DNA of 45,848 nt from an uncultured Nocardioidaceae bacterium (GTDB taxonomy: Bacteria; Actinomycetota; Actinomycetes; Propionibacteriales; Nocardioidaceae). The translations under genes were made by a program, and so were the position numbers. This document shows, in pieces, positions 9,658 to 21,605 of the stretch. Positions within the stretch are counted from its first letter, which is position 1; each line of letters starts with the position of its first letter. The notes under the pieces are model-generated. The model made no database searches, was not told the origin of the DNA, and saw only the letters and a program-made list of their open reading frames with translations. Location of the stretch: NCBI GenBank assembly GCA_902805865.1, contig CADCUK010000025.1, forward strand, positions 4,206 to 50,053. The letters run 5' to 3'.

Positions 9658-10446
9658 TCACTCCTTGATTTCGATCTTCTCCGCGGGGGAGTCCGGGGTC
9701 GTCGGCTCGTGCGGGGTGTCGGTCGCATCCGAGGCGGCCTCGTCAGGGCTGCCTCCACCGGCGTCGGTGGGGCTGGGCTCGCCGGCCGTGACGCTGACGC
9801 CACCCTGGGGACCGGTCGCCTCGTCGGTCTGGTCATCTGTCTGGGCGGCATCAGCAGCAGCGAGCCCGGCCACGGCGGCGGCGGGAGCGGACGCGGTCTC
9901 GGCGGCCTGCTCGGTCGTGCTGGGGGCGGGCGCCGGGGTCGGGCGACCGGGCGGGGTCGACTGCCACTGGGGCTCGGCGCCGTTGCTCCGCAGCTTCTGG
10001 GCGATCACGGCAGCGGCCGCGCCGATGCCGGCCACCACGAACAGCTTCTTGAGCCGGCCGGAACCCTTCGAGCGCTTGGCGGCAGCGGCGACGACCGCGG
10101 GGGTCGCCTTGTCGGGCAGCGACTCGTCGAGCTTCACCGCGACGGTGCCGGCGAGGTCCGCGAGCCGCTCCTTGGCGTCGCCGACGACCGGGGTGAGCCG
10201 GTCGCGGGCGTCCTCGACCACGGGGGTGAGCCGGCCACGGGCGTCCTCGACCACCGGCGTCAGCCGGATCCGGGCGTCCTCGACGACAGGAGTGATGCGC
10301 TCGCGGGCGTCCGCGACGACCGGCGCGAGGCGCTCACGGGCGTCCTCGACCGCGGGGCCGATGCGGTCCTGCAGGTCACTCGCCTGAACCTTCGCCTGGC
10401 CCACGGCCAGCGCGAGCTTCGACGCGGACTTCTTCTTGGACGCCAT
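9658..10446 (-). CDS. Membrane protein with six 11-residue amphipathic repeats
   Basis: 262 residues from the ATG giving MASKKKSASKLAL, preceded by GGGAG as ribosome binding site. Residues 33–98 are six tandem 11-mers of form V-E-D-A-R-x-R-L-T-P-V, an amphipathic helical repeat with regular prolines, like apolipoprotein/LEA-type 11-mers. A membrane span is likely at 134–150 (KLFVVAGIGAAAAVIAQKL), preceded by a Lys/Arg-rich patch. The last about 100 residues are Ala/Pro/Thr/Glu-rich and low complexity. Frame continues upstream of 10446 but lacks repeat or membrane features. Layout suggests a membrane-anchored protein with a repeat helix lying on a membrane or polymer; I do not recognise a named family. 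Confidence 0.75.
   Translation of the reverse strand: MASKKKSASKLALAVGQAKVQASDLQDRIGPAVEDARERLAPVVADARERITPVVEDARIRLTPVVEDARGRLTPVVEDARDRLTPVVGDAKERLADLAGTVAVKLDESLPDKATPAVVAAAAKRSKGSGRLKKLFVVAGIGAAAAVIAQKLRSNGAEPQWQSTPPGRPTPAPAPSTTEQAAETASAPAAAVAGLAAADAAQTDDQTDEATGPQGGVSVTAGEPSPTDAGGGSPDEAASDATDTPHEPTTPDSPAEKIEIKE
10153..10350 (-). repeat. 33-bp tandem repeat, six copies
   Basis: Six consecutive 33-base units encode the 11-residue repeats. The plus strand shows recurring GGGCGTCCTCGACCAC blocks at regular 33-base spacing. The middle copies are most alike, as expected for expansion by unequal exchange, and the outer ones are degenerate. Confidence 0.85.
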
Positions 10447-10669
10447 CCTCAACTCCCTGTTTCGACTTGTCTGTTGGCGGGCCTCGAGCGCCGGATCGGC
10501 GTCGCGACGGGCGCACGGAATCGCTGCACCACTGCCCATGTCAACCGTTCCCTGCCCATGGGGCAGGAAACCCCATGCGGGGGCGCGTGACAAGATCGGT
10601 GACGGACTGGACCGCCAGGCGGAGACCCCCTGTCCGACCGATCTCAGCAGCGACCCGAAAGGCAGGCCG

Positions 10670-11191
10670 GTGGCCGACACCTACGCAACCCTGAAGACCA
10701 ACCGCGGCGACATCGCGATCAAGCTGTTCCCGGACCACGCGCCGGCGACCGTGCGCAACTTCGTGGAGCTCGCCAACGGTCAGAAGGAGTACAAGGACCC
10801 CACCACCGGCGAGAAGAAGACCGGCAGGTTCTACGACGGGCTGACCTTCCACCGCATCATCGACGGGTTCATGATCCAGGGCGGCGACCCGCGCGGCGAC
10901 GGTCGCGGCGGTCCCGGCTACACCTTCAAGGACGAGTTCCACCCCGAGCTCCAGTTCGACCGTCCCTACCTGCTCGCGATGGCCAACGCAGGTCCGGGCA
11001 CCAACGGGTCGCAGTTCTTCATCACCGTCACGCCGACGCCTCACCTGAACCGGAAGCACACGATCTTCGGCGAGGTCGCCGACGCCGAGGCGCGCGCGGT
11101 GGTCGACGCGATCGCCACCACCAAGGTCGGGCCGATGGACCGGCCGGCCGACCCGGTCGTGATCGAGACGGTCACGGTCGAGGACCGCTGA
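10670..11191 (+). CDS. ppiA: Peptidyl-prolyl cis-trans isomerase, cyclophilin type
   Basis: 173 residues. The GTG start giving MADTYATLKTNRGDIAIKL is chosen because the cyclophilin fold begins there and AAAGG lies about eight bases upstream. Signature FHRIIDGFMIQGGDP is at 60–74 with catalytic R62, and NGSQFFITV at 112–120 supplies the proline pocket. There is no signal peptide, so it acts in the cytoplasm as a protein-folding isomerase. The position between gyrA and crgA matches mycobacterial ppiA. It is divergent from the 11-mer repeat gene across 223 bases that contain a CCTGCCC-ATG-GGGCAGG inverted repeat (10551–10567). Confidence 0.95.
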   Translation: MADTYATLKTNRGDIAIKLFPDHAPATVRNFVELANGQKEYKDPTTGEKKTGRFYDGLTFHRIIDGFMIQGGDPRGDGRGGPGYTFKDEFHPELQFDRPYLLAMANAGPGTNGSQFFITVTPTPHLNRKHTIFGEVADAEARAVVDAIATTKVGPMDRPADPVVIETVTVEDR

Positions 11192-11255: not shown

Positions 11256-12155
11256 ATGAGCGACGAGCCGACAGAGGTCGGCAGCGAGCAGCAGCTGACG
11301 CCGACGTGCTACCGGCACGACGGCCGGGAGACCCATATCCGCTGCCAGCGCTGCGAGCGGCCGATCTGCCCTGACTGCATGCGCCAGGCCTCGGTCGGCT
11401 TCCACTGCCCCGACTGCGTCCAGGAGGCAGCCCGCACGACTCGCCAGCCACGCACGGCGTACGGCGGCCGGCGGCGGGGATCGCCGGGACTGGTGACCAC
11501 CACGCTCATCGTGATCAACCTCGTGGTCTTCGTGCTGGTCGCGGCCACCGGCGGCTCCGACGGCTGGCTGCTCCCGCAGCTCGCGCTCATCCCCGTCGGA
11601 GCGGTCTACCTCGTCAACGGACAGCCGGACTTCGTCGAGGGCATCGCCGACGGAGCGGCCTGGCAGCTCGTCACCTCGATGTTCACCCACGTCGAGATCT
11701 GGCACATCGGCTTCAACATGCTCGCGTTGTACGTCCTGGGGCCGCAGCTGGAGATGGTGCTCGGCCGGGCGAGGTTCCTGGCGCTGTACCTCCTCTCCGG
11801 GCTCGTCGGCAGCGCAACGGTCTACTGGCTGGCCCAGGAGAGCTCGGTGACCGTCGGGGCGTCGGGGTCGTTGTTCGGGCTGATGGCGGCGCTGCTCGTG
11901 GTGGCCATCAAGGTCCGCGGCGACGTGCAGGGACTCCTCACGCTGGTCGCGATCAACATCGCGATCACGATCTTCGGACGCGGGTTCATCTCGTGGCAGG
12001 GACACCTGGGCGGGTTCGTGGGCGGGCTCCTCCTCGCCTTTGCGCTGGTCTACGCCCCGCGCGCGAGCCGCACGACCTGGCAGGTGCTCGGCGTCTCGCT
12101 GATCGCGCTGGCGACGGCCGCTGCGGTGGTGGCCCGCACGCTCGTGCTCACCTGA
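11256..12155 (+). CDS. Rhomboid family intramembrane serine protease with N-terminal zinc finger
   Basis: 299 residues. The N-terminus holds a B-box-like zinc-binding module with C18, H21, C30, C33, C38, C41, H50, C51 and C54. Six or seven membrane segments follow from residue 80. Rhomboid hallmarks are HIGFN (H150, N154), catalytic S203 in GASGSLFG and H250 in GHLGGFVGG, giving an intact Ser-His dyad. The family cleaves transmembrane substrates inside the bilayer; the cytoplasmic zinc module is common in actinobacterial members and may bind substrate or partner proteins. It lies 64 bases after ppiA on the same strand. Confidence 0.94.
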   Translation: MSDEPTEVGSEQQLTPTCYRHDGRETHIRCQRCERPICPDCMRQASVGFHCPDCVQEAARTTRQPRTAYGGRRRGSPGLVTTTLIVINLVVFVLVAATGGSDGWLLPQLALIPVGAVYLVNGQPDFVEGIADGAAWQLVTSMFTHVEIWHIGFNMLALYVLGPQLEMVLGRARFLALYLLSGLVGSATVYWLAQESSVTVGASGSLFGLMAALLVVAIKVRGDVQGLLTLVAINIAITIFGRGFISWQGHLGGFVGGLLLAFALVYAPRASRTTWQVLGVSLIALATAAAVVARTLVLT

Positions 12156-12384: not shown

Positions 12385-12825
12385 TCACTCCCAGCGGGTG
12401 GCGTAGACGAAGCCGACGGTCATGAAGCCGATCCCGACCAGGAGGTTGTAGTTCCCCAGCTCACGGAACACCGGGATGCTGGCGTCCTGGCTGGTCACGT
12501 AGTAGACGATGATCCACGCCAGGCCGAGCAGGAAGCTGCCGAGCATGCCGACCACGACGCCACGACCGCGTCCGAGGGGGGTCCGCCGGTTCGCTGCGAT
12601 GATGAGCCCCAGGAACAGTGCGCCGAAGCCGATCAGGAAGTTCCAGTCCCCGAGGTCGGCCATCCAGGTCGGCTTGAGGTCGTCGTACACGGCGAAGACG
12701 TAGTAGCCCACCCACGCGATGCCGCCCACCACGAGCAGAGCCGCCAGTCCGGTGCGGACCACCGAGATGGAGTCGGCTGCCGGAGGGGTCTTCTCTCGCG
12801 CGCTTGCACTGCGAGGCTTGGACAC
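12385..12825 (-). CDS. crgA: Cell division protein CrgA, internally duplicated (four membrane spans)
   Basis: 146 residues from a GTG start (MSKPRSASAREK) with AGGAGA upstream. CrgA is a small septal membrane protein that interacts with FtsZ and peptidoglycan synthases in actinobacteria and normally has about 85–95 residues and two membrane spans. Here the C-terminal half (99–144: FLLGLAWIIVYYV … LGNYNLLVGIGFMTVGFVYATRW) is a full CrgA unit. The N-terminal half (31–79: LVVGGIAWVGYYVF … LGDWNFLIGFGALFLGLIIAANR) repeats the same pattern. The result is a four-span fused dimer-like protein. It lies beside the DUF881 gene and the pkn/pbp operon, the expected context. Confidence 0.9.
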   Translation of the reverse strand: MSKPRSASAREKTPPAADSISVVRTGLAALLVVGGIAWVGYYVFAVYDDLKPTWMADLGDWNFLIGFGALFLGLIIAANRRTPLGRGRGVVVGMLGSFLLGLAWIIVYYVTSQDASIPVFRELGNYNLLVGIGFMTVGFVYATRWE

Positions 12826-12972: not shown

Positions 12973-13854
12973 ATGGACGGCAGCGGCACCCACAGGAAAC
13001 CCGGCGCCCGTGCCGTCCGGTCGTCCCTCACGCACCGCCTCGTCCGGCTGCGTGGTCCACTGGGCGGTCCACTGCGCGGGAGCAGCGGTGCGGATGGCGG
13101 CGGCACCCCCACGCGCGGTCGCAGCCTGGGCTGGCGGCTCGCCACTCCGGTGGCGTTCCTCGGCGCCGGCGCCCTGCTCGTCACGAGCGGGGTCAACTCG
13201 GCGGGCACGGACCTCCGTCCCAGCCAGTACGCCGACCTCGCGGACCTCGCCCAGCAGGAGACCGACCGGGTCGCCGGTCTGCAGGACCGGGTCGCGGAGC
13301 TCACCGCCGAGATCGAGGAGCTCAGCGGGGAGCTCGACAGCGGGACGATGGACCAGGTGCAGGCCGACATCGACGCACTGTCCGGACCCGCGGGGCTGAC
13401 GGCGATGAAGGGGCCGGGGCTCACCGTCACCCTCGAGGATGCGCCCGAGGCGATCCGTGACTCGGTGAGCGACGAGAACGTGAGGGACACGATCGTCCAC
13501 CAGCAGGACATCCAGGCCGTGGTCAACGCGATGTGGGCCGGTGGGGCCGAGGCGATGACGCTTCAAGGGCAGCGGGTGGTGTCGACGACCGGGATCAAGT
13601 GCGTCGGCAACACCGTGCTGCTGCACGGCGTGACCTACTCACCGCCGTACGTCATCTCGGCTGTCGGCGACCCGGACGTGATGCGGGAGAGCATCGAGTC
13701 CAGCCCCTACATCCAGGCCTACCTCGACGCCGTCGAGCAGTGGCGGGTCGGCTGGGACGTCGAGGTCGAGGAGTCGATCGAGGCTCCGGCGTACGCCGGC
13801 ACGACCGACATGAGGTACGCGCGGGCCACCGCGAACGGCTCGGACGGGAGCTGA
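12973..13854 (+). CDS. DUF881 family protein
   Basis: 293 residues. An Arg-rich cytoplasmic N-terminus precedes one membrane span at about 59–76 (AFLGAGALLVTSGVNS). A coiled coil (about 95–125, QDRVAELTAEIEELSGEL) leads into the DUF881 fold with GPGLTVTLEDA, QDIQAVVNAMWAGGAEAM, NTVLLHGVTYSPPYVI and AIG-like AVGDPD. Homologues sit beside crgA in mycobacteria and in the Firmicutes ylx cell-division region. A membrane-anchored extracytoplasmic role in division or envelope maintenance is inferred. The start is uncertain; the ribosome binding site is weak and nearby alternatives would trim the Arg-rich tail only. Confidence 0.88.
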   Translation: MDGSGTHRKPGARAVRSSLTHRLVRLRGPLGGPLRGSSGADGGGTPTRGRSLGWRLATPVAFLGAGALLVTSGVNSAGTDLRPSQYADLADLAQQETDRVAGLQDRVAELTAEIEELSGELDSGTMDQVQADIDALSGPAGLTAMKGPGLTVTLEDAPEAIRDSVSDENVRDTIVHQQDIQAVVNAMWAGGAEAMTLQGQRVVSTTGIKCVGNTVLLHGVTYSPPYVISAVGDPDVMRESIESSPYIQAYLDAVEQWRVGWDVEVEESIEAPAYAGTTDMRYARATANGSDGS

Positions 13855-13863
13855 CCCGGCGGT

Positions 13864-15708
13864 CTACTGCTGACCGGGGGCGTCCTCACGACCCTGACCG
13901 TTCCCCTGGCCGCCGCCACCCGCGCCCTCGGACGGCGTTGCGCTCTCGGTGGGGACCGTCGGAGTCGGAGTCGGGGTCGGGGTCGGGGTCGGGGTGGGAG
14001 TCGCGGTCTCCGACGGGGTCGGTGTCGGCTCCGGCTCCTTGTAGTCCGAGACCCTGATCGAGACCGTCGATCCCCGCGGTGCCGTGCTGAGGCCACCCGG
14101 GTCCTGGCTGAGCACCGTGCCCCGCTCGGAAGGCGTGTCGGCGTCGAAGCTGACGTCGACCTCGAACCCGGCGTCCTCGAGCTCGGCGACCGCCTCGTCC
14201 TCGGTCATCCCTACGACGTTCGGCACCTCGGAAGGGCCGGTGGACACGTAGATCGTGACCGTGGAGCCGGCCTCCACCGACGTGGCGGGCCGCGGGTTGC
14301 TGTCGATGACGAGCCCCTGGGGCTCGTCGGAGTCCTGCTCGACGGCGTCGACGTCGAGGCCGAGGTCGGTCAGCTGGGCGGTGGCGTCCCGCTCGGACTG
14401 GCCGAGCACGTCGGGCACGGTGACCATCTCCGAGCCTGCGGAGATGACGACGTCCACCTCGGACCCCGCGTCGGCGACGTCGCCCGGCTCGGGGTCCTGC
14501 TCGAGCACGCGGCCCTTCTCGACGTCGTCGGAGCTCTCCTGGCTCACCGTCCCGAGCTCCAGCCCCTCGGCCTCGAGCCGGCGCTCCGCAGCCCGCTCGG
14601 TCATGTTCGTGACCTGCGGGACCGTCACCTGCTCGGCCTCGGGAGAGTCGAAGAACTGCACCGCCGCTGCGATGCCGCCGATCAGCAGCGCCAGCAGCAC
14701 CAGCACCAGGACCACGATCGGCCAGCGCTTGCGGCGCTCGTCCTCCTCCGGCTCCGGGTCGGCGGTCGGACGGAAGATCGAGGTCGGCTCGCCCGGGGCG
14801 GGGGCGGCGGGCGCCGCCGCGATCACGGCGGTCGGTGCGTCGACCGGCTGGCCGTCGAGGTAGCGCTGCACGTCGGCCCGCATCTCGTCGGCGCTCTGGT
14901 ACCGGTCCTCCACCCGCTTGGCGAGCGACTTCATCACGATCGAGTCGAGCTGGGGAGGCAGGTCCGGGTCGTGCACGCTCGGCGCCTCGGGCGTCTCCCG
15001 GACGTGCTGGTAGGCGACCGAGAACGGGCTGTCACCGACGAACGGTGGGCGTCCGACGAGCAGCTCGTAGAGCAGGCACCCTGCCGAGTAGACGTCGCTG
15101 CGCGAGTCCACGGTCTCCCCCCGGGCCTGCTCGGGGGAGAGGTACTGCGCCGTGCCGACGACGGCCTGGGTCTGCGTCACCGAGGAGGTGCCCTCGGTGA
15201 TCGCACGGGCGATGCCGAAGTCCATGACCTTCACGTCGCCGGACGGGGTCAGCATGACGTTGGCGGGCTTGATGTCGCGGTGGATGATGCCGGCCCGGTG
15301 GCTGTACTCGAGGGCGGCGAGCACGCCGACCATGATCTCCAGCGCGCGCTCCGGCAGGAGCTTGCGGCCGTCGTCGAGCACCTCGCGCAGGGTGCGGCCG
15401 GGGACGTACTCCATCACGATGTACGGCTGGACGTGCGTCCCGTCGGCGGCCATCTCCTCGCCGGAGTCGTAGACCGCGACGATGTTGGGGTGGTTCAACC
15501 CGGCAGCCGACTGCGCCTCACGGCGGAAGCGTGCCTGGAACGTGGGGTCGCTCGCCAGGTCGACCCGCAGCCGCTTGATCGCGACGGTCCGGCCCAGTCG
15601 GACGTCGGTGCCGCTCCGCACCTCGGCCATGCCGCCGCGGCCGAGCAGGTCACCGAGCTCGTAGCGCCCGCCGACTCGGGCGCCGCCGCCCTGGGTCTCC
15701 TGGTCCAT
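13864..15708 (-). CDS. pknB: Transmembrane Ser/Thr protein kinase PknB with PASTA domains
   Basis: 614 residues, last gene of the operon. Kinase domain (about 16–285) shows the Gly loop GRGGMAEV, K45, HRDIKPANVML with catalytic D145, DFG at 163–165 and the activation loop TSSVTQTQAVVGTAQYLSPE carrying the Thr residues autophosphorylated in PknB. A juxtamembrane linker leads to one span at about 330–350. Three extracellular PASTA units follow (about 360–555: VPQV, VPDV and VPNV), binding muropeptides or lipid II in known relatives. The usual fourth PASTA is missing; instead there is a Pro-Thr repeat and a Gly/Gln/Asn tail of about 55 residues. pknA ends two bases upstream. Confidence 0.96.
   Translation of the reverse strand: MDQETQGGGARVGGRYELGDLLGRGGMAEVRSGTDVRLGRTVAIKRLRVDLASDPTFQARFRREAQSAAGLNHPNIVAVYDSGEEMAADGTHVQPYIVMEYVPGRTLREVLDDGRKLLPERALEIMVGVLAALEYSHRAGIIHRDIKPANVMLTPSGDVKVMDFGIARAITEGTSSVTQTQAVVGTAQYLSPEQARGETVDSRSDVYSAGCLLYELLVGRPPFVGDSPFSVAYQHVRETPEAPSVHDPDLPPQLDSIVMKSLAKRVEDRYQSADEMRADVQRYLDGQPVDAPTAVIAAAPAAPAPGEPTSIFRPTADPEPEEDERRKRWPIVVLVLVLLALLIGGIAAAVQFFDSPEAEQVTVPQVTNMTERAAERRLEAEGLELGTVSQESSDDVEKGRVLEQDPEPGDVADAGSEVDVVISAGSEMVTVPDVLGQSERDATAQLTDLGLDVDAVEQDSDEPQGLVIDSNPRPATSVEAGSTVTIYVSTGPSEVPNVVGMTEDEAVAELEDAGFEVDVSFDADTPSERGTVLSQDPGGLSTAPRGSTVSIRVSDYKEPEPTPTPSETATPTPTPTPTPTPTPTVPTESATPSEGAGGGGQGNGQGREDAPGQQ
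13957..14035 (-). repeat. Pro-Thr coding simple repeat in pknB
   Basis: A GGGGTC-type hexamer repeat on the plus strand codes for alternating Pro-Thr in the extracellular tail of PknB. Copy number is likely to vary between strains because the unit is short and nearly perfect in the middle. Confidence 0.75.
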
Positions 15709-15710
15709 GT

Positions 15711-17366
15711 CTACCTCGTGCCGCCCTTGCCCGGTCTGCCCCCGCCGTTGCCGCCTGCGTTGCTGCCGCCTGCGCCGCCGCCGTTCCCGTTGCCGCCTGC
15801 GTTGCTGCTGCCCGGGCCGTTGCCCGGAGCGGTGCCCGGGCCGTTGCCCGGGCCGTTGCCCGGCCCGTTGCCCGGCCCGTTGCCCGGCCCGTTGCTGGGC
15901 CCATTGTTCTGGGCGTTGCCCGCCGCGCTCGGACCATTGCCCGGCGCGCCGCTCGCGGCGTTGGGTGTGGCGGAGCCTCCCCGGTCCGCCGTCCCGGCGG
16001 CACCGGCCTGCCCCGGACCGCGGTCGGCGCCGGCGCCGGCCGGTCCGGCGGCGTCACCGGACGAGCCTCCTGTCGACGTGGGCTCGGCGCGACGCTGCGA
16101 CCACAGCGTGAGCTCCACGCGGGTGCCGGGCTCGAGGAGCCCGGTGGGGCCGATGGCGGCGACGGTGCCACCGGTCTCCGTTCCCGGGTTGGCACGGCGC
16201 TCGGCAGCGAGGCGGGGACGGAGCCCCAGCTCCTCCAGCCGCCGGACGGCCTCGGCGGCGTCCATGCCGAGGTACTGCGCCGCTCGGACCCGGACGCCGT
16301 CGGGCTCGTCCTGGGACACCGACTCCGTCCCCTGGGGGTCGGCGGGCTCGTCGGTGGACGCCGTCGTCGCCCACACCCCGCCGGAGACGAGCAGGAGGGT
16401 GACGAGCCCTGTCACCAGTCGCCGGGGGCTCAGCGGCGAGGACCGACGACCGGTCCCTGCCGCTGTGGCACCGGTGGGTGCGTGCCCGACCGGTGCGTTC
16501 CGGGCCGGCGAGCTCGCCGAGGCGGGGACCAGGTAGGTGCGGGTCGCCGGGCTCTCGTCACGCAGCGCGGCAGCCATCGCGCCCGCGCTGCGGAATCGGG
16601 CCGACGGGTCCTTCGCGGTGGCGATCTCGGTGATCCGGCGCAACCGCTCGGGGACCGGCACCGGGAACGGCGGCAGGGGTTCGCGGATCTGCATCACCGC
16701 GGTGGCCACCGGCGACTCGGCGGCGAAGGGCTTGCGACCGGTCAGGCACTCGTAGAGCACGATGCCGAGCGCGTACACGTCGCTGACCGCGGTCGCGGAC
16801 TGCCCCTCGGCCTGCTCGGGGGACAGGTAGTGCGGGGTGCCGATCAGGTGACCGGTCATCGTCAGCGAGGCCGCGTGGGCGGCGCGCGCGACGCCGAAGT
16901 CGGTGACCTTGACCTGTCCCTCGACCGTGACGAGCAGATTTCCGGGCTTCACGTCGCGGTGGACGATGCCGATGGCGTGGGCGGCCTCGATGCCCTCGGC
17001 GGCCTGGGCGATCAGCTCGGCAGCCAGGTCCGGGGCGAGGGGCTGGCCACCGGCGAGCAGCGCGGACAACGGCCGGCCCTCGACGAGCTCCATCACGAGG
17101 AACGGCAACGGTGCCCGGCCCTGGTCCGTGAGCTCGCCGTAGTCGAGCACCGACGCGACGTGCGGGTGCTGCAGCGCGCCGGCGTGCCGCGCCTCGGCGG
17201 CGAACCTCTGACGGAGGACCGGGTCCTGGGCCAGCTCCGGCCGGAGGACCTTCACCGCCACCTCGCGGTCGAGGAGCGTGTCGGTCGCCTGCCACACCTC
17301 GCCCATCCCGCCGGCTGCGACCCAGCGGTCGAACTGGTACCTCGGGTGCTGCAGGGTGGCCGTCAC
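15711..17366 (-). CDS. pknA: Transmembrane Ser/Thr protein kinase PknA-like with one PASTA-like domain and Gly-rich tail
   Basis: 551 residues from a GTG that overlaps the pbpA stop in GTGA. Kinase domain (about 10–270) has AAGGMGEVW, K39, VHRDVKPGNLLV, TDFGVAR and GTPHYLSPEQAEG. One span lies at about 314–334 (GLVTLLLVSGGVW). Residues about 355–420 form a single PASTA-like unit (AAQYLGMDAAEAVRRLEELG … LLEPGTRVELTLW). The last about 130 residues are a low-complexity tail with Asn-Gly-Pro-Gly repeats ending GGGRPGKGGTR. Mycobacterial PknA has no PASTA domain, so this form differs. It is likely to phosphorylate division and wall-synthesis proteins with PknB. Confidence 0.93.
   Translation of the reverse strand: MTATLQHPRYQFDRWVAAGGMGEVWQATDTLLDREVAVKVLRPELAQDPVLRQRFAAEARHAGALQHPHVASVLDYGELTDQGRAPLPFLVMELVEGRPLSALLAGGQPLAPDLAAELIAQAAEGIEAAHAIGIVHRDVKPGNLLVTVEGQVKVTDFGVARAAHAASLTMTGHLIGTPHYLSPEQAEGQSATAVSDVYALGIVLYECLTGRKPFAAESPVATAVMQIREPLPPFPVPVPERLRRITEIATAKDPSARFRSAGAMAAALRDESPATRTYLVPASASSPARNAPVGHAPTGATAAGTGRRSSPLSPRRLVTGLVTLLLVSGGVWATTASTDEPADPQGTESVSQDEPDGVRVRAAQYLGMDAAEAVRRLEELGLRPRLAAERRANPGTETGGTVAAIGPTGLLEPGTRVELTLWSQRRAEPTSTGGSSGDAAGPAGAGADRGPGQAGAAGTADRGGSATPNAASGAPGNGPSAAGNAQNNGPSNGPGNGPGNGPGNGPGNGPGTAPGNGPGSSNAGGNGNGGGAGGSNAGGNGGGRPGKGGTR
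15811..15906 (-). repeat. 12-bp repeat coding Asn-Gly-Pro-Gly in pknA
   Basis: About seven near-perfect copies of a 12-base unit (plus strand GTTGCCCGGCCC and variants) encode repeated NGPG in the extracellular tail of PknA. Two synonymous versions of the unit are arranged in blocks, which indicates recent local duplication. Confidence 0.8.
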
Positions 17367-18829
17367 TGGGACACCACCGCCTCCATGACCGCCTTCGCGA
17401 TCGGGGCGGCCAGGCCGCTGCCCGAGATCGCGTCACGGTCCACGCCCGCGTCCTCGACGATGACCGCCACGGCCACCTCCGGGTTGTCCGCGGGCGCGAA
17501 CGACACGAACCAGGCGTACGGCGCCAGGTCGGTGGCCCGCTGGGCGGTGCCGGTCTTCCCGGCGACCTTGATGCCCGGGATCTGGGCGGGGGACGCCGTG
17601 CCCCGGTCCACGACCTCGACCATCATCTGGGTGAGCTCGCTCGCCGACGACGACGACATCGCCTGGTCCGGCATCTCCTCGGGGGAGGTCTTCTCCAGCA
17701 CGCTGAGGTCGGGTGCGCGGACCTCGTCGACGAGGTACGGGACCATCCCCTGGCCGCCGTTGGCGATCGTCGCGCTGACCAGGGCCATCTGGAGCGGGCT
17801 CGCGCGGACGTCGTGCTGGCCGATCGCCGCGTAGGCGACGAGCGGACCCGCGGCGTCCTCGGAGAACGCGCTGGCGGCCTGGCCGCCGAGCCCCTCCAGG
17901 TAGCGCTCGCCGAACCCGAACTTCTCCGCCTGCTCGCGCAGCGCGTCCTCGCCGAGCTCGAGACCGAGCGAGCCGAACGAGACGTTGCAGGAGACCATGA
18001 GCGCCTGCGTGAGCGTCACCCGCTCGCCGCCACAGCTCCCGCCGGTGTGGTTCGGCAACGTGTTGTCGGTCTGCGGCAGCTCGAGCTCGGCGCCGCCCGG
18101 CACCAGGGAGTCGGCGTCGTAGTCGCCGGTCTCCAGCGCGGCGGCGGCGGTGACGAGCTTGAAGGTGGAGCCGGGGGCGTAGGTCTCCTGGATCGCGCGG
18201 TTGAAGAGTGGCTTGTCCTCGGCGGCGTTGAGCTGCTCGTACGCGTCCTGCACCGCGTCGAGGTCGTGGGAGGCGAGGACGTTCGGGTCGTACGTCGGGT
18301 TCGACACCATGGCGAGGATGCGGCCGGTGGCCGGCTCGAGGGCGACCACGCCGGCCTGGGTGTCCGCACCGAGCGCCTGGATGGCGTCGAAGGCCGCGTC
18401 CTGGGCCGCGGCGTCGATCGTCAGCGAGACCGACCCGCCCTCGGGCTCGGTGTTGCTGACCATGTCGACGAACCGGCTCACGAAGAGCCTCTGGTCGCTG
18501 CCGGAGAGGATGTCGTTCTGGTTCGACTCGACCCCGGTGGCGCCGTACACGTAGGAATAGAACCCGGTGAGGTGAGCGTACTTGAACGGCAGCGGGTACT
18601 GCCGCTGGACCTCGAACTGGTCCTCGACCGGCACGCTCTCGGCGACCTGGGATCCCCCCACGAGGATCGCGCCGCGCTCGCGGGAGAACTCCGCGTCGAT
18701 GACCCGCCGGTTGTTGCTGCGGTCGTTGAGGTCGTCGGCCTGGAGGTACTGCAGGTAGCTCGCGTTCAGCAGCAGCGCCACGAACAGCACCATGCAGAAC
18801 ACACCCATCGTGCGGATCGGCTTGTTCAT
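17363..18829 (-). CDS. pbpA: Class B penicillin-binding protein PbpA (transpeptidase)
   Basis: 488 residues starting MNKPIRTMGVFCMVLFVALL at the ATG that overlaps the rodA stop in ATGA. One N-terminal membrane anchor (about 7–24) is followed by the class-B dimerisation domain (ERGAILVGG) and the transpeptidase domain. Active-site motifs are complete: S221-TFK, S280-CN and K425-TG. It cross-links peptidoglycan outside the membrane. Its pairing with RodA, kinases and FHA proteins is the standard actinobacterial wall-synthesis operon. The frame stays open far upstream, through the neighbouring genes, but only this start gives a signal anchor. Confidence 0.96.
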   Translation of the reverse strand: MNKPIRTMGVFCMVLFVALLLNASYLQYLQADDLNDRSNNRRVIDAEFSRERGAILVGGSQVAESVPVEDQFEVQRQYPLPFKYAHLTGFYSYVYGATGVESNQNDILSGSDQRLFVSRFVDMVSNTEPEGGSVSLTIDAAAQDAAFDAIQALGADTQAGVVALEPATGRILAMVSNPTYDPNVLASHDLDAVQDAYEQLNAAEDKPLFNRAIQETYAPGSTFKLVTAAAALETGDYDADSLVPGGAELELPQTDNTLPNHTGGSCGGERVTLTQALMVSCNVSFGSLGLELGEDALREQAEKFGFGERYLEGLGGQAASAFSEDAAGPLVAYAAIGQHDVRASPLQMALVSATIANGGQGMVPYLVDEVRAPDLSVLEKTSPEEMPDQAMSSSSASELTQMMVEVVDRGTASPAQIPGIKVAGKTGTAQRATDLAPYAWFVSFAPADNPEVAVAVIVEDAGVDRDAISGSGLAAPIAKAVMEAVVSQ

Positions 18830-20190
18830 CGGATCCGTACCACCTGGGTCGCGTCGTCCTCGAGCGTCGGCTGGAGCTCCGGCAGCGGGCGCCGGGCGTG
18901 GTCGCTGATCCGCAGCAGCAGCCCGATGACCACCCAGTTCGCCACCATCGACGAGCCGCCGTAGGACATGAACGGCGTGGTGAGCCCGGTCAGCGGGATG
19001 AGCTTGGTGACGCCGCCGATGACGACGAAGACCTGCAGCGCGATGACGATGCCGAAGCCGGTGGCCATCAGCTTCCCGAACCCGTCGCGGCAGATCAGCG
19101 CGGTCCGCAGCGCGCGCTCCACGATCAGCCCGAAGAGCAGGATCATCGCCATCATCCCGGTGAGGCCGAGCTCCTCTCCGACTGCGGCGACGATGTAGTC
19201 GGAGTAGGAGAACGGGATCCGCCAGGGCTCGCCCTGGCCGAGGCCACGGCCCACGAGGCCGCCCCAGGCCATGCCGTAGAGCCCCTCGACGATCTGGCCG
19301 AAGTCGTCGTCGGCGAACGGGTCGATCCAGCCCTGGACCCGGGTCTGGACGTGACCGAAGATCGAGTAGGCGAGCAGCGAGCCGCCGATGAAGAGCGCCG
19401 ACCCGACGACGAGCCAGCCCGGTCGCTCGGTGGCGACGTAGAGCATCACGAGGAACAGGCCGAAGAACAGCAGGCTCGAGCCGAGGTCGCGCTGGAAGAC
19501 CAGGACGCCGAGGCTGATCAGCCACATGCCGAGGATCGGGCCCAGGTCGCGGCCGCGGGGGAAGTCGATGCCGGCCACCCGCCGGCCGGCGAGCGCCAGC
19601 GCGTCGCGGTGCAGCACGAGGTAGCCCGCGAACGCGATGACGAGGGCCACCTTGGCCACCTCGCCGGGCTGGAAGGAGAAGCCGCCCACGCCGATCCAGA
19701 TGCGGGCGCCGTTGATCGTCTTGCCGATGCCGGGCACGAGGGGCAGCAGCAGGAGCGCGATCGCCCCGAAGCCCATCGTGTAGGTGAACGCCTGGAGGCG
19801 GCGGTGGTCGCGGAGGAGGACCAGGACCGCGGCGAAGAGCCCGACGCCGAGGGTCGTCCACATGAGCTGCTTGGCGGACAGCGACGTGTCGGAGGCGAGG
19901 TCGATCCGGTAGATCATCGCCAGGCCCAGCCCGTTGAGGGCGGTCACCACCGGGAGCAGCACCGGGTCGGCGTACGGCGCGGTGAACCGGACCACGAGGT
20001 GGGCGCACACCGCCAGGGCGGCGAGCCACGCCGAGTAGCCGAAGATGTCGGCCGGCAGCTTCTCCTCCACCCCGAGCCCGACCGCGGCGTAGGCGCCGAT
20101 GCCGACGGCCAGCGCGAGCAGGAGGAGGACCAGCTCGGCACCGCGGCGGCGCCTGTGGGTGAACGCAGCTCCTGGGGAACCGCCGCTCAC
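18826..20190 (-). CDS. rodA: RodA/FtsW/SpoVE family peptidoglycan polymerase
   Basis: 454 residues from a GTG overlapping the pstP stop in GTGA, the same junction type as the rest of the operon. About ten to twelve membrane spans. SEDS signatures present are NGARIWIGVGGFSFQPGE, FQRDLGSSLLFFGLF and LTGLTTPFMSYGGSSM, and the catalytic Asp/Glu-bearing loop ending VAAVGEELGLTG. SEDS proteins polymerise lipid II into glycan strands together with a class B PBP, here PbpA encoded next. A short conserved cytoplasmic C-terminus ends QVVRIR. Confidence 0.95.
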   Translation of the reverse strand: MSGGSPGAAFTHRRRRGAELVLLLLALAVGIGAYAAVGLGVEEKLPADIFGYSAWLAALAVCAHLVVRFTAPYADPVLLPVVTALNGLGLAMIYRIDLASDTSLSAKQLMWTTLGVGLFAAVLVLLRDHRRLQAFTYTMGFGAIALLLLPLVPGIGKTINGARIWIGVGGFSFQPGEVAKVALVIAFAGYLVLHRDALALAGRRVAGIDFPRGRDLGPILGMWLISLGVLVFQRDLGSSLLFFGLFLVMLYVATERPGWLVVGSALFIGGSLLAYSIFGHVQTRVQGWIDPFADDDFGQIVEGLYGMAWGGLVGRGLGQGEPWRIPFSYSDYIVAAVGEELGLTGMMAMILLFGLIVERALRTALICRDGFGKLMATGFGIVIALQVFVVIGGVTKLIPLTGLTTPFMSYGGSSMVANWVVIGLLLRISDHARRPLPELQPTLEDDATQVVRIR

Positions 20191-21605
20191 CGGAGCACCA
20201 CCGTGTCGTCTTCGCCGGACCACGAGGAGGCCGCACCCGCCCGGCGGGTGGGGCCGTCCGACGGCTCGCGGGACGGCTCGTCCGAGGGCTTGTCCGACGG
20301 CTTCCTCGTCGGGTCGGCCGACGGGGACCGGCTCGGCTCCCTGGCCGGCCCCTCGGCCTGCTCGTTGAGGTTCTGCACGATCCGCCGGGCGTCCTCGAGG
20401 TCGTCGGCGACGATGCCGTCCTCGACCTTCGTCTGGTTGAACTCCGACAGGTCCGCCACCTTGAGGTCGTCGACCTCGTAGGTGCTGGACAGGTCGATCC
20501 CCGGCAGGTCGAGCTGGACACCGCGGTAGATCGCCACCTGGGGCCCGTCCTCGGCGACGTAGTACTGCTGCTGGCTCCAGAGGTAGCCGCCGGTGAGCAG
20601 CGCCGCGGCCAGCACGAGGAGTGCCGAGATCAGGAGCAGCCTGCGGAGCCCTGTCCGGCGATGAGGCGGTTGAGGCGCGTAGCGCAGCTCCTCGGGGTCG
20701 ACCGGCTCGTCCGGCACCGCGTCCAGCTCGCCGGTGTCCCCGTGGCGCTGGCGCGAGAGGACCCGCCCCAGCTTGCCGCCGCGTCGTGGCTGAGCGGACG
20801 CCGCCCCGACCAGCATCGGCCCGACGGCCGCGGCGGCGCTCGTCTCGGGGTCGTCCGTGCCACCGGCAGCCGTCACCTCGGCGACGATCACCGTGACGTT
20901 GTCGGTCGTGCCGCCGTCGAGCGCTCCCTGCACCAGGGCCACCGCCGCCGAGTCGACGGAGCCGTCCCCGAGCAACGCGGCCATCTGGCCGTCGGTGAGC
21001 GCCCCCGAGCAGCCGTCGCTGCAGAGCAGGATGCGGTCGCCGGTCTGCAGCGGCACCAGGAACAGGTCCGGGTCGGTGTCGTGCACGCCGTCCACCGCCC
21101 GCAGGATGATGTTGCGGTGCGGGTGGACCCGGGAGTCCTCCTCGGTGATGCGGCCCTCGTCGATCAGCGTCTGGACGAACGTGTGGTCCTTGGTGAGCTG
21201 GTCGATCCGGCCGTCGCGCAGCAAGTAGGCACGGCTGTCACCGACGTGCGCCATGCCGAGCTGCTCGCCGTCGAAGAGCGCCGCGGTGACGGTGGTGCTG
21301 GTGCCCTCGAGCTCGCGGTCGCTCTCCACCATCTCAGCAAGGCGGTCGTGGATGCGGTGCACGACGCCGGCCAGGGCCGGGAGCATCTCGTCGGTCGGGT
21401 CGGAGTCGAGCCGCCGCAGGAGGTGCACCGCGGTGGAGCTGGCCACGTCGCCGTACGCCGCTCCGCCGACGCCGTCCGCGATCACGAGCAGGTGCTCGCT
21501 CGCGTAGCCGGAGTCCTGGTTGTCCTTGCGGTGCCGGCCGACGTCGGAGACGGCGGCGTACCTGAGTCGGAAAGGGCCGCGGGGGGCGACGGTGTCGTCG
21601 GTCAC
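20187..21605 (-). CDS. pstP: PP2C-family Ser/Thr phosphatase PstP
   Basis: 472 residues with a GTG start three bases after the fhaB stop. The PP2C domain (about 12–240) contains all metal motifs: VGRHRKDNQDSGY, IADGVGGAAYGD (D44), VGDSRAYLLRDG, LCSDGCSGALTD and TTDNVTVIVAEV. A cytoplasmic linker leads to one span at about 317–340 (LLLISALLVLAAALLTGGYLW), then an extracellular part with Ser-Asp-Lys-Pro repeats at the very end (KPSDKPSDEPSREPSD). It is the general phosphatase reversing PknA/PknB phosphorylation of wall and division proteins. Confidence 0.95.
   Translation of the reverse strand: MTDDTVAPRGPFRLRYAAVSDVGRHRKDNQDSGYASEHLLVIADGVGGAAYGDVASSTAVHLLRRLDSDPTDEMLPALAGVVHRIHDRLAEMVESDRELEGTSTTVTAALFDGEQLGMAHVGDSRAYLLRDGRIDQLTKDHTFVQTLIDEGRITEEDSRVHPHRNIILRAVDGVHDTDPDLFLVPLQTGDRILLCSDGCSGALTDGQMAALLGDGSVDSAAVALVQGALDGGTTDNVTVIVAEVTAAGGTDDPETSAAAAVGPMLVGAASAQPRRGGKLGRVLSRQRHGDTGELDAVPDEPVDPEELRYAPQPPHRRTGLRRLLLISALLVLAAALLTGGYLWSQQQYYVAEDGPQVAIYRGVQLDLPGIDLSSTYEVDDLKVADLSEFNQTKVEDGIVADDLEDARRIVQNLNEQAEGPAREPSRSPSADPTRKPSDKPSDEPSREPSDGPTRRAGAASSWSGEDDTVVLR

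Follow-up and report, generated by a model that had tools for sequence, protein, structure and literature searches.

The window analysed here, a stretch of 45,848 nucleotides from an uncultured Nocardioidaceae bacterium, contains a crgA gene whose product carries two CrgA hairpins in one chain (Table 1). In its usual form, CrgA is a single small hairpin with two membrane spans. The gene order at the locus (isomerase, rhomboid, crgA, DUF881, pknB) is that found around single-hairpin crgA in the family, and the usual CrgA setting in the order, a divergent DUF881 gene and then pknB, is present together with pbpA and rodA. Pfam also identifies a PP2C phosphatase gene in the window. Two readings of the 1052-aa frame at 17363-20521 (- strand) were discarded: PbpA makes up only the last part of it, so that it is not a long PbpA, and it is not a PbpA-RodA fusion since RodA (18826-20223) occupies another frame. 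Elsewhere in the window, an open reading frame at 9658-10389 (- strand) matches Apolipoprotein with 41.7 bits, below the cut-off of 90, which probably reflects amphipathic repeats.

Table 1. The crgA gene of the window, the parts of its product and the neighbouring genes (window positions).
Feature	Position	Strand	Basis and remarks
Cyclophilin peptidyl-prolyl isomerase gene, conserved neighbour	10664..11191	+	PF00160 1.7e-46; synteny; start chosen by hand
Rhomboid-family protease gene, conserved neighbour	11256..12155	+	PF01694 1e-35; synteny
crgA, two CrgA hairpins	12385..12825	-	146 aa, GTG start, TGA stop at 12385-12387; ORF and Pfam match of both halves
N tail, short, positively charged, without PES motif	12763..12825	-	residues 1-21; predicted cytoplasmic
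N hairpin, LGDWN kept	12595..12762	-	residues 22-77, helices 22-46 and 61-77; Pfam 39.1 bits
Basic linker ANRRTPLGRGR	12562..12594	-	residues 78-88; predicted cytoplasmic, mean net charge +2.2
C hairpin, LGNYN replacing LGxWN	12388..12561	-	residues 89-146, helices about 88-111 and 126-145; Pfam 63.9 bits
DUF881 gene, conserved divergent neighbour	12973..13854	+	PF05949 9.1e-48; synteny
PknB-type kinase with PASTA domains	13864..15708	-	PF00069 and PF03793
Second Ser/Thr kinase	15711..17366	-	PF00069 2.1e-39
PbpA-type transpeptidase	17363..18820	-	PF00905 and PF21922; upstream end approximate
RodA/FtsW-family gene	18826..20223	-	PF01098 3.2e-73

The full-length protein matches PF06781 (CrgA) with 93.9 bits, the Pfam curated cut-off being 24.8. 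Each half exceeds this cut-off by itself, the N half with 39.1 bits (8.4e-10) and the C half with 63.9 bits (1.6e-17), and at E <= 10 CrgA is the only Pfam family that the N half matches. The two halves also align with each other over residues ~35-77 and ~101-142, with 14 of 42 positions identical and a BLOSUM62 score of 69. This score was not reached by any of 2000 shuffles of the C half with its hydrophobic pattern preserved (mean 29.7, s.d. 5.9, maximum 61), nor by any of 2000 plain shuffles (maximum 52). At the DNA level, 72 of 126 aligned positions are identical, and the duplication is therefore old. The first-pass annotation had described the protein as an internal tandem duplication and had proposed searching with each half, with a match of the N half to an unrelated family pointing to a fusion instead. 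Both searches return CrgA, and the protein is almost certainly an internal tandem duplication. A fusion of CrgA to an unrelated two-span protein has a negligible probability and is ruled out by the score of the N half alone as CrgA and its lack of any other Pfam match at the same threshold.

All six NCBIfam CrgA equivalog models (NF002595, NF001194, NF002597, NF002594, NF002593 and NF002596) score the protein below their cut-offs, the best with 65.9 against 109 bits, and we therefore assign it to the Pfam CrgA family and not to these narrow equivalogs. Two of the NCBIfam models are long (157 and 191 positions) and were considered as earlier descriptions of tandem forms. This was rejected, as both halves match only the C-terminal parts of the models; from the positions of these matches, we take the two models to describe single hairpins that have long tails.

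The AlphaFold2 model of the protein, built on 61 aligned sequences, has a mean pLDDT of 89.7 and a pTM of 0.80. Four long helices (22-46, 61-77, 88-111 and 126-145) are accompanied by a short helix in either loop (53-58 and 118-123), so that one pattern is repeated twice. Four membrane spans, as the first-pass annotation had proposed, are thus predicted by the model, and the charges of the segments are consistent with them: over the 61 sequences, the mean net charge is +2.1 for the N tail, -1.5 for loop 1, +2.2 for the linker and -2.4 for loop 2. Under the positive-inside rule, this alternation would place both hairpins parallel in the membrane and fits an N-in/C-in topology. Within the linker and at its border to the C hairpin, P83, G85, G87, R88 and G89 do not vary across the 61 sequences. 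Both halves are modelled as two-span hairpins with a WN-type motif, of which the C half has the Asn without the Trp.

Residues 24-77 of the window protein match the sequences of the solved CrgA structures 2mmu (E 0.0016) and 9nm2 (E 0.0017), whose chains comprise 101-102 residues. The 9nm2 entry gives two chains that share the same sequence. Foldseek returns nothing at E <= 0.001 and a second structural search returns common helical arrangements only (Z up to 7.6), with no CrgA among the matches listed in either; this says nothing against the CrgA identity of the protein.

In the window genome, which is 82% complete, both PF06781 matches lie in the single open reading frame at 12385-12825, and no second CrgA gene was found. 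Exactly two CrgA matches in one frame are present in five of five genomes of the window genus, and two of its genomes that are single contigs rated 100% complete hold no further CrgA gene. The tandem protein is the canonical CrgA of the cell, internally duplicated.

The same arrangement is widespread among the relatives. A scan of genome contigs for the best 80 of 125 relatives revealed two hairpins in 79 and four in one, which rules out a frameshift or an assembly artefact; the titles of these records are Nocardioides, Nocardioidaceae or Pimelobacter, apart from two titled Actinomycetota only. We call ‘Nocardioides type’ the genera g1, g5, g7, g12, g14, g19, g21 and g24, which supply 80 of the 149 genomes of family f1. 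A tandem CrgA is present in 78 of these 80. Pfam reports two matches in 76, one in two (G010 and G098, both tandem on reading of the locus) and none in two (G067 and G118). Likewise, seven of 78 genomes sampled from the genus around Nocardioides speluncae have a single Pfam match; six of them were read and all are tandem (L190-L195), and in the seventh (G765) the match lies at the contig place of that in G010. Since Pfam overlooks some diverged N hairpins, counts of single CrgAs among unread loci are upper bounds.

Outside the Nocardioides type, family f1 shows a single hairpin in 18 of 18 loci examined, with the exception of genus g20, where both forms occur (of 37 selected loci, 13 are tandem and 24 have a single hairpin). 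A model of the g20 N repeat detected no hidden upstream repeat in any of 63 single-hairpin open reading frames. In other families of the order, f3 and f4 have one CrgA match in 46 of 46 genomes, and genus g27 of family f2 has a tandem CrgA in four of 20 (G253, G309, G321 and G327). Beyond the order, 11 of 355 genomes of the class have two matches, in none of the 11 in the same frame, and among the matches listed for 225 genomes of the phylum outside the class no two share a frame. Family f20 loci L171, L172, L174 and L178 represent genomes with a second, weaker CrgA-like gene elsewhere, around which the four usual CrgA neighbours were not found. In G228 (f2), matches of equal score at 2602-2865 and 4704935-4705198 lie near both ends of contig 1 and are perhaps an untrimmed assembly overlap.

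The survey of relatives, which the first-pass annotation had suggested as a way to locate the origin of the duplication, shows that it is old and common to the whole Nocardioides-type clade. A tree of the proteins that flank CrgA (73 rows) unites the 19 tandem rows of the Nocardioides type (SH-aLRT 99) and places the tandem rows of f2 in a group of their own. Three changes are needed to account for the tandem rows of g20, and five state changes suffice overall. In a tree of the single domains (64 columns), the Nocardioides-type C hairpins form one group, and those of g20 and f2 cluster with the single CrgAs of their own lineages. The simplest reading of these trees is that the tandem CrgA may have been gained three or more times. 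In the Nocardioides type, the head-to-tail copying of one hairpin would date from the common ancestor of these bacteria. A single old duplication in the ancestor of f1 with later losses in many lineages, in place of separate Nocardioides-type and g20 origins, seems improbable. It would account for the position of seven of the nine g20 N hairpins beside those of the Nocardioides type in the domain tree, a placement obtained with 64 columns and long branches, many N hairpins being long branches whose joins are flagged by the program. However, the g20 C hairpins adjoin single CrgAs from g20 itself and from nearby genera, five changes suffice on the flanking-gene tree, and several separate losses would be needed as the other 18 of 18 family rows are single. 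The tandem form of family f2 is separate regardless.

The duplication has gone further in one organism. Nocardioides speluncae YIM ART13 encodes four hairpins in one chain (L085:3731-4579), at the same locus as the window gene and likewise ending in a C-type hairpin but 283 aa long. Hairpins 1-3 resemble each other (22/53 to 27/61 identical) and the window N hairpin, while hairpin 4 resembles the window C hairpin (43/64 identical); by these similarities, the protein is made of three N-type hairpins and one C-type hairpin. Pfam detects three of the four. The AlphaFold2 model is weaker than that of the window protein (pLDDT 73.8, pTM 0.56) and contains eight span-length helices. Among the matches listed for the 78-genome genus sample, no other genome has three in one frame; G797 has three in all and a two-hairpin protein at the crgA locus.

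The WN motif offers a view of how the hairpins have diverged. For the motif and tail counts, 22 loci were dropped as repeats of another locus or second CrgA-like genes; a species drawn from two sources may still be represented twice, and distinct pairs were therefore counted too. Of 53 distinct single CrgAs, 52 have the Trp. The 95 distinct tandem proteins of the Nocardioides type fall into 61 with the Trp in the N hairpin alone, 21 with it in both hairpins and 13 with it in neither; not one has it in the C hairpin alone. With duplicates included, 103 of 104 N hairpins and 102 of 102 C hairpins of the Nocardioides type retain the Asn. Distinct Nocardioides-type proteins share, on average, an identity of 0.55 in the N hairpin and 0.75 in the C hairpin. 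Judged from this conservation, both hairpins remain under constraint. The 13 proteins with Trp in neither hairpin indicate that this residue is not indispensable, and in g20 tandem proteins the Trp is present in both hairpins (9/9), so that a split of roles is not general.

A PES tail motif, which many CrgAs carry, was searched with a narrow pattern over a limited upstream stretch and was found in none of 102 Nocardioides-type tandem proteins and none of 16 g20 single CrgAs; its absence is therefore not tied to the duplication. Inspection by eye shows tails that this count overlooks, namely PESS in L141 and L142 and a PES motif lying farther upstream in L166. The tandem CrgAs of f2 (L145, L165-L168) carry a long tail with a PESK/PESR motif ahead of the first hairpin. 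In Mycobacterium tuberculosis CrgA, FtsZ binding is reported to map to the N-terminal domain. Taken with the missing PES motif, this mapping suggests that the FtsZ contact of tandem CrgA may be different.

The window protein shares with the CrgA of PF06781 (Rv0011c of M. tuberculosis, SCO3854 of Streptomyces coelicolor) the WN-motif hairpin and the family match, and its gene neighbourhood is that of single-hairpin relatives in the order. It differs in its short tail without PES motif and in the missing WN Trp of the C hairpin. The characterised proteins of Streptomyces and Mycobacterium are small and have one hairpin (84 aa for S. coelicolor CrgA), whereas the window protein has 146 aa, two hairpins and four predicted spans; we thus regard it as a variant. 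The family is known, and a tandem CrgA is not mentioned in the open-access literature searched. It may already be visible among the PF06781 domain architectures.

What is reported of CrgA places it at the septum. M. tuberculosis CrgA localises there and binds FtsZ, FtsI, FtsQ and PbpA; over the literature, the partners named are FtsZ, FtsI, FtsQ, PbpA, CwsA, Wag31 and MmpL3, the last two being covered by PMC6656915. The contact with FtsQ may go through the spans (PMC10036325), and overproduction of CrgA inhibits septation in Streptomyces (PMC4255298). The first-pass annotation had envisaged a single-chain pseudo-dimer with altered pairing to FtsZ, PbpA and RodA. In the open-access literature consulted, RodA is not mentioned as a partner beside those named. 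A pseudo-dimer is plausible and topologically possible, since the modelled hairpins face the same way.

We propose that, at the septum, the chain would do the same job as CrgA in the form of a ready-made hairpin pair and would replace a CrgA dimer. Because a hairpin is predicted to start and end in the cytoplasm, its copies would lie parallel with a short basic cytoplasmic linker between them. The C hairpin would provide the conserved core contacts, while the N hairpin, holding the WN Trp often lost from the C hairpin, would make a partner contact. In this way, the two hairpins would split roles formerly common to identical CrgA subunits. For this explanation as a whole, a duplicated canonical CrgA working as a built-in septal pair with divided roles, we see about an even chance of being right.

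Its main rival is the neutral persistence of the N hairpin, with the C hairpin doing all the work and the N hairpin having little role; this is possible though rather unlikely. A hairpin which both begins and ends in the cytoplasm could be added harmlessly. The C hairpins are closer to the single CrgAs than the N hairpins are (mean identity 0.43 vs 0.31) and more alike among themselves, and N hairpins constitute most of the long branches in the domain tree. Yet the N hairpin is present in every Nocardioides-type locus examined and keeps the Asn of the WN motif; of 95 distinct proteins, 82 retain the Trp there, as opposed to 21 of 95 in the C hairpin. These conserved residues argue against mere tolerance. 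Somewhat doubtful as well is a neofunctionalised N hairpin that does not pair with the C hairpin but binds another partner, the chain thus bridging two components of the divisome. The mean identity of only 0.27 between N and C hairpins within one protein is in line with such a change, as is the amplification of N-type hairpins alone in N. speluncae. However, no candidate partner was found, and AlphaFold2 yields one model for the chain (pTM 0.80), read here for its helices.

The built-in pair may also be placed in a wider frame. The tandem form in two other lineages and the four hairpins of N. speluncae imply that fusion has been tolerated or favoured repeatedly. Tentatively, and at less than even probability, the working unit of CrgA could be a homo-oligomer of parallel hairpins that has been hard-wired into one chain at least three times in this order as two hairpins and once as four, the Nocardioides type having divided the WN contact such that only the N hairpin holds the Trp in most species.

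The tandem design is kept across the Nocardioides-type bacteria and seems to have more than one origin. This suggests that the number of spans in a conserved division protein can rise from two to four or eight while the gene stays at its own locus. Natural chains of two or four hairpins, with one-sided loss of a near-invariant Trp, make it possible to mutate the subunit positions one at a time, an option that identical subunits do not offer. Tandem CrgA thereby provides a natural means to test whether CrgA acts in pairs.
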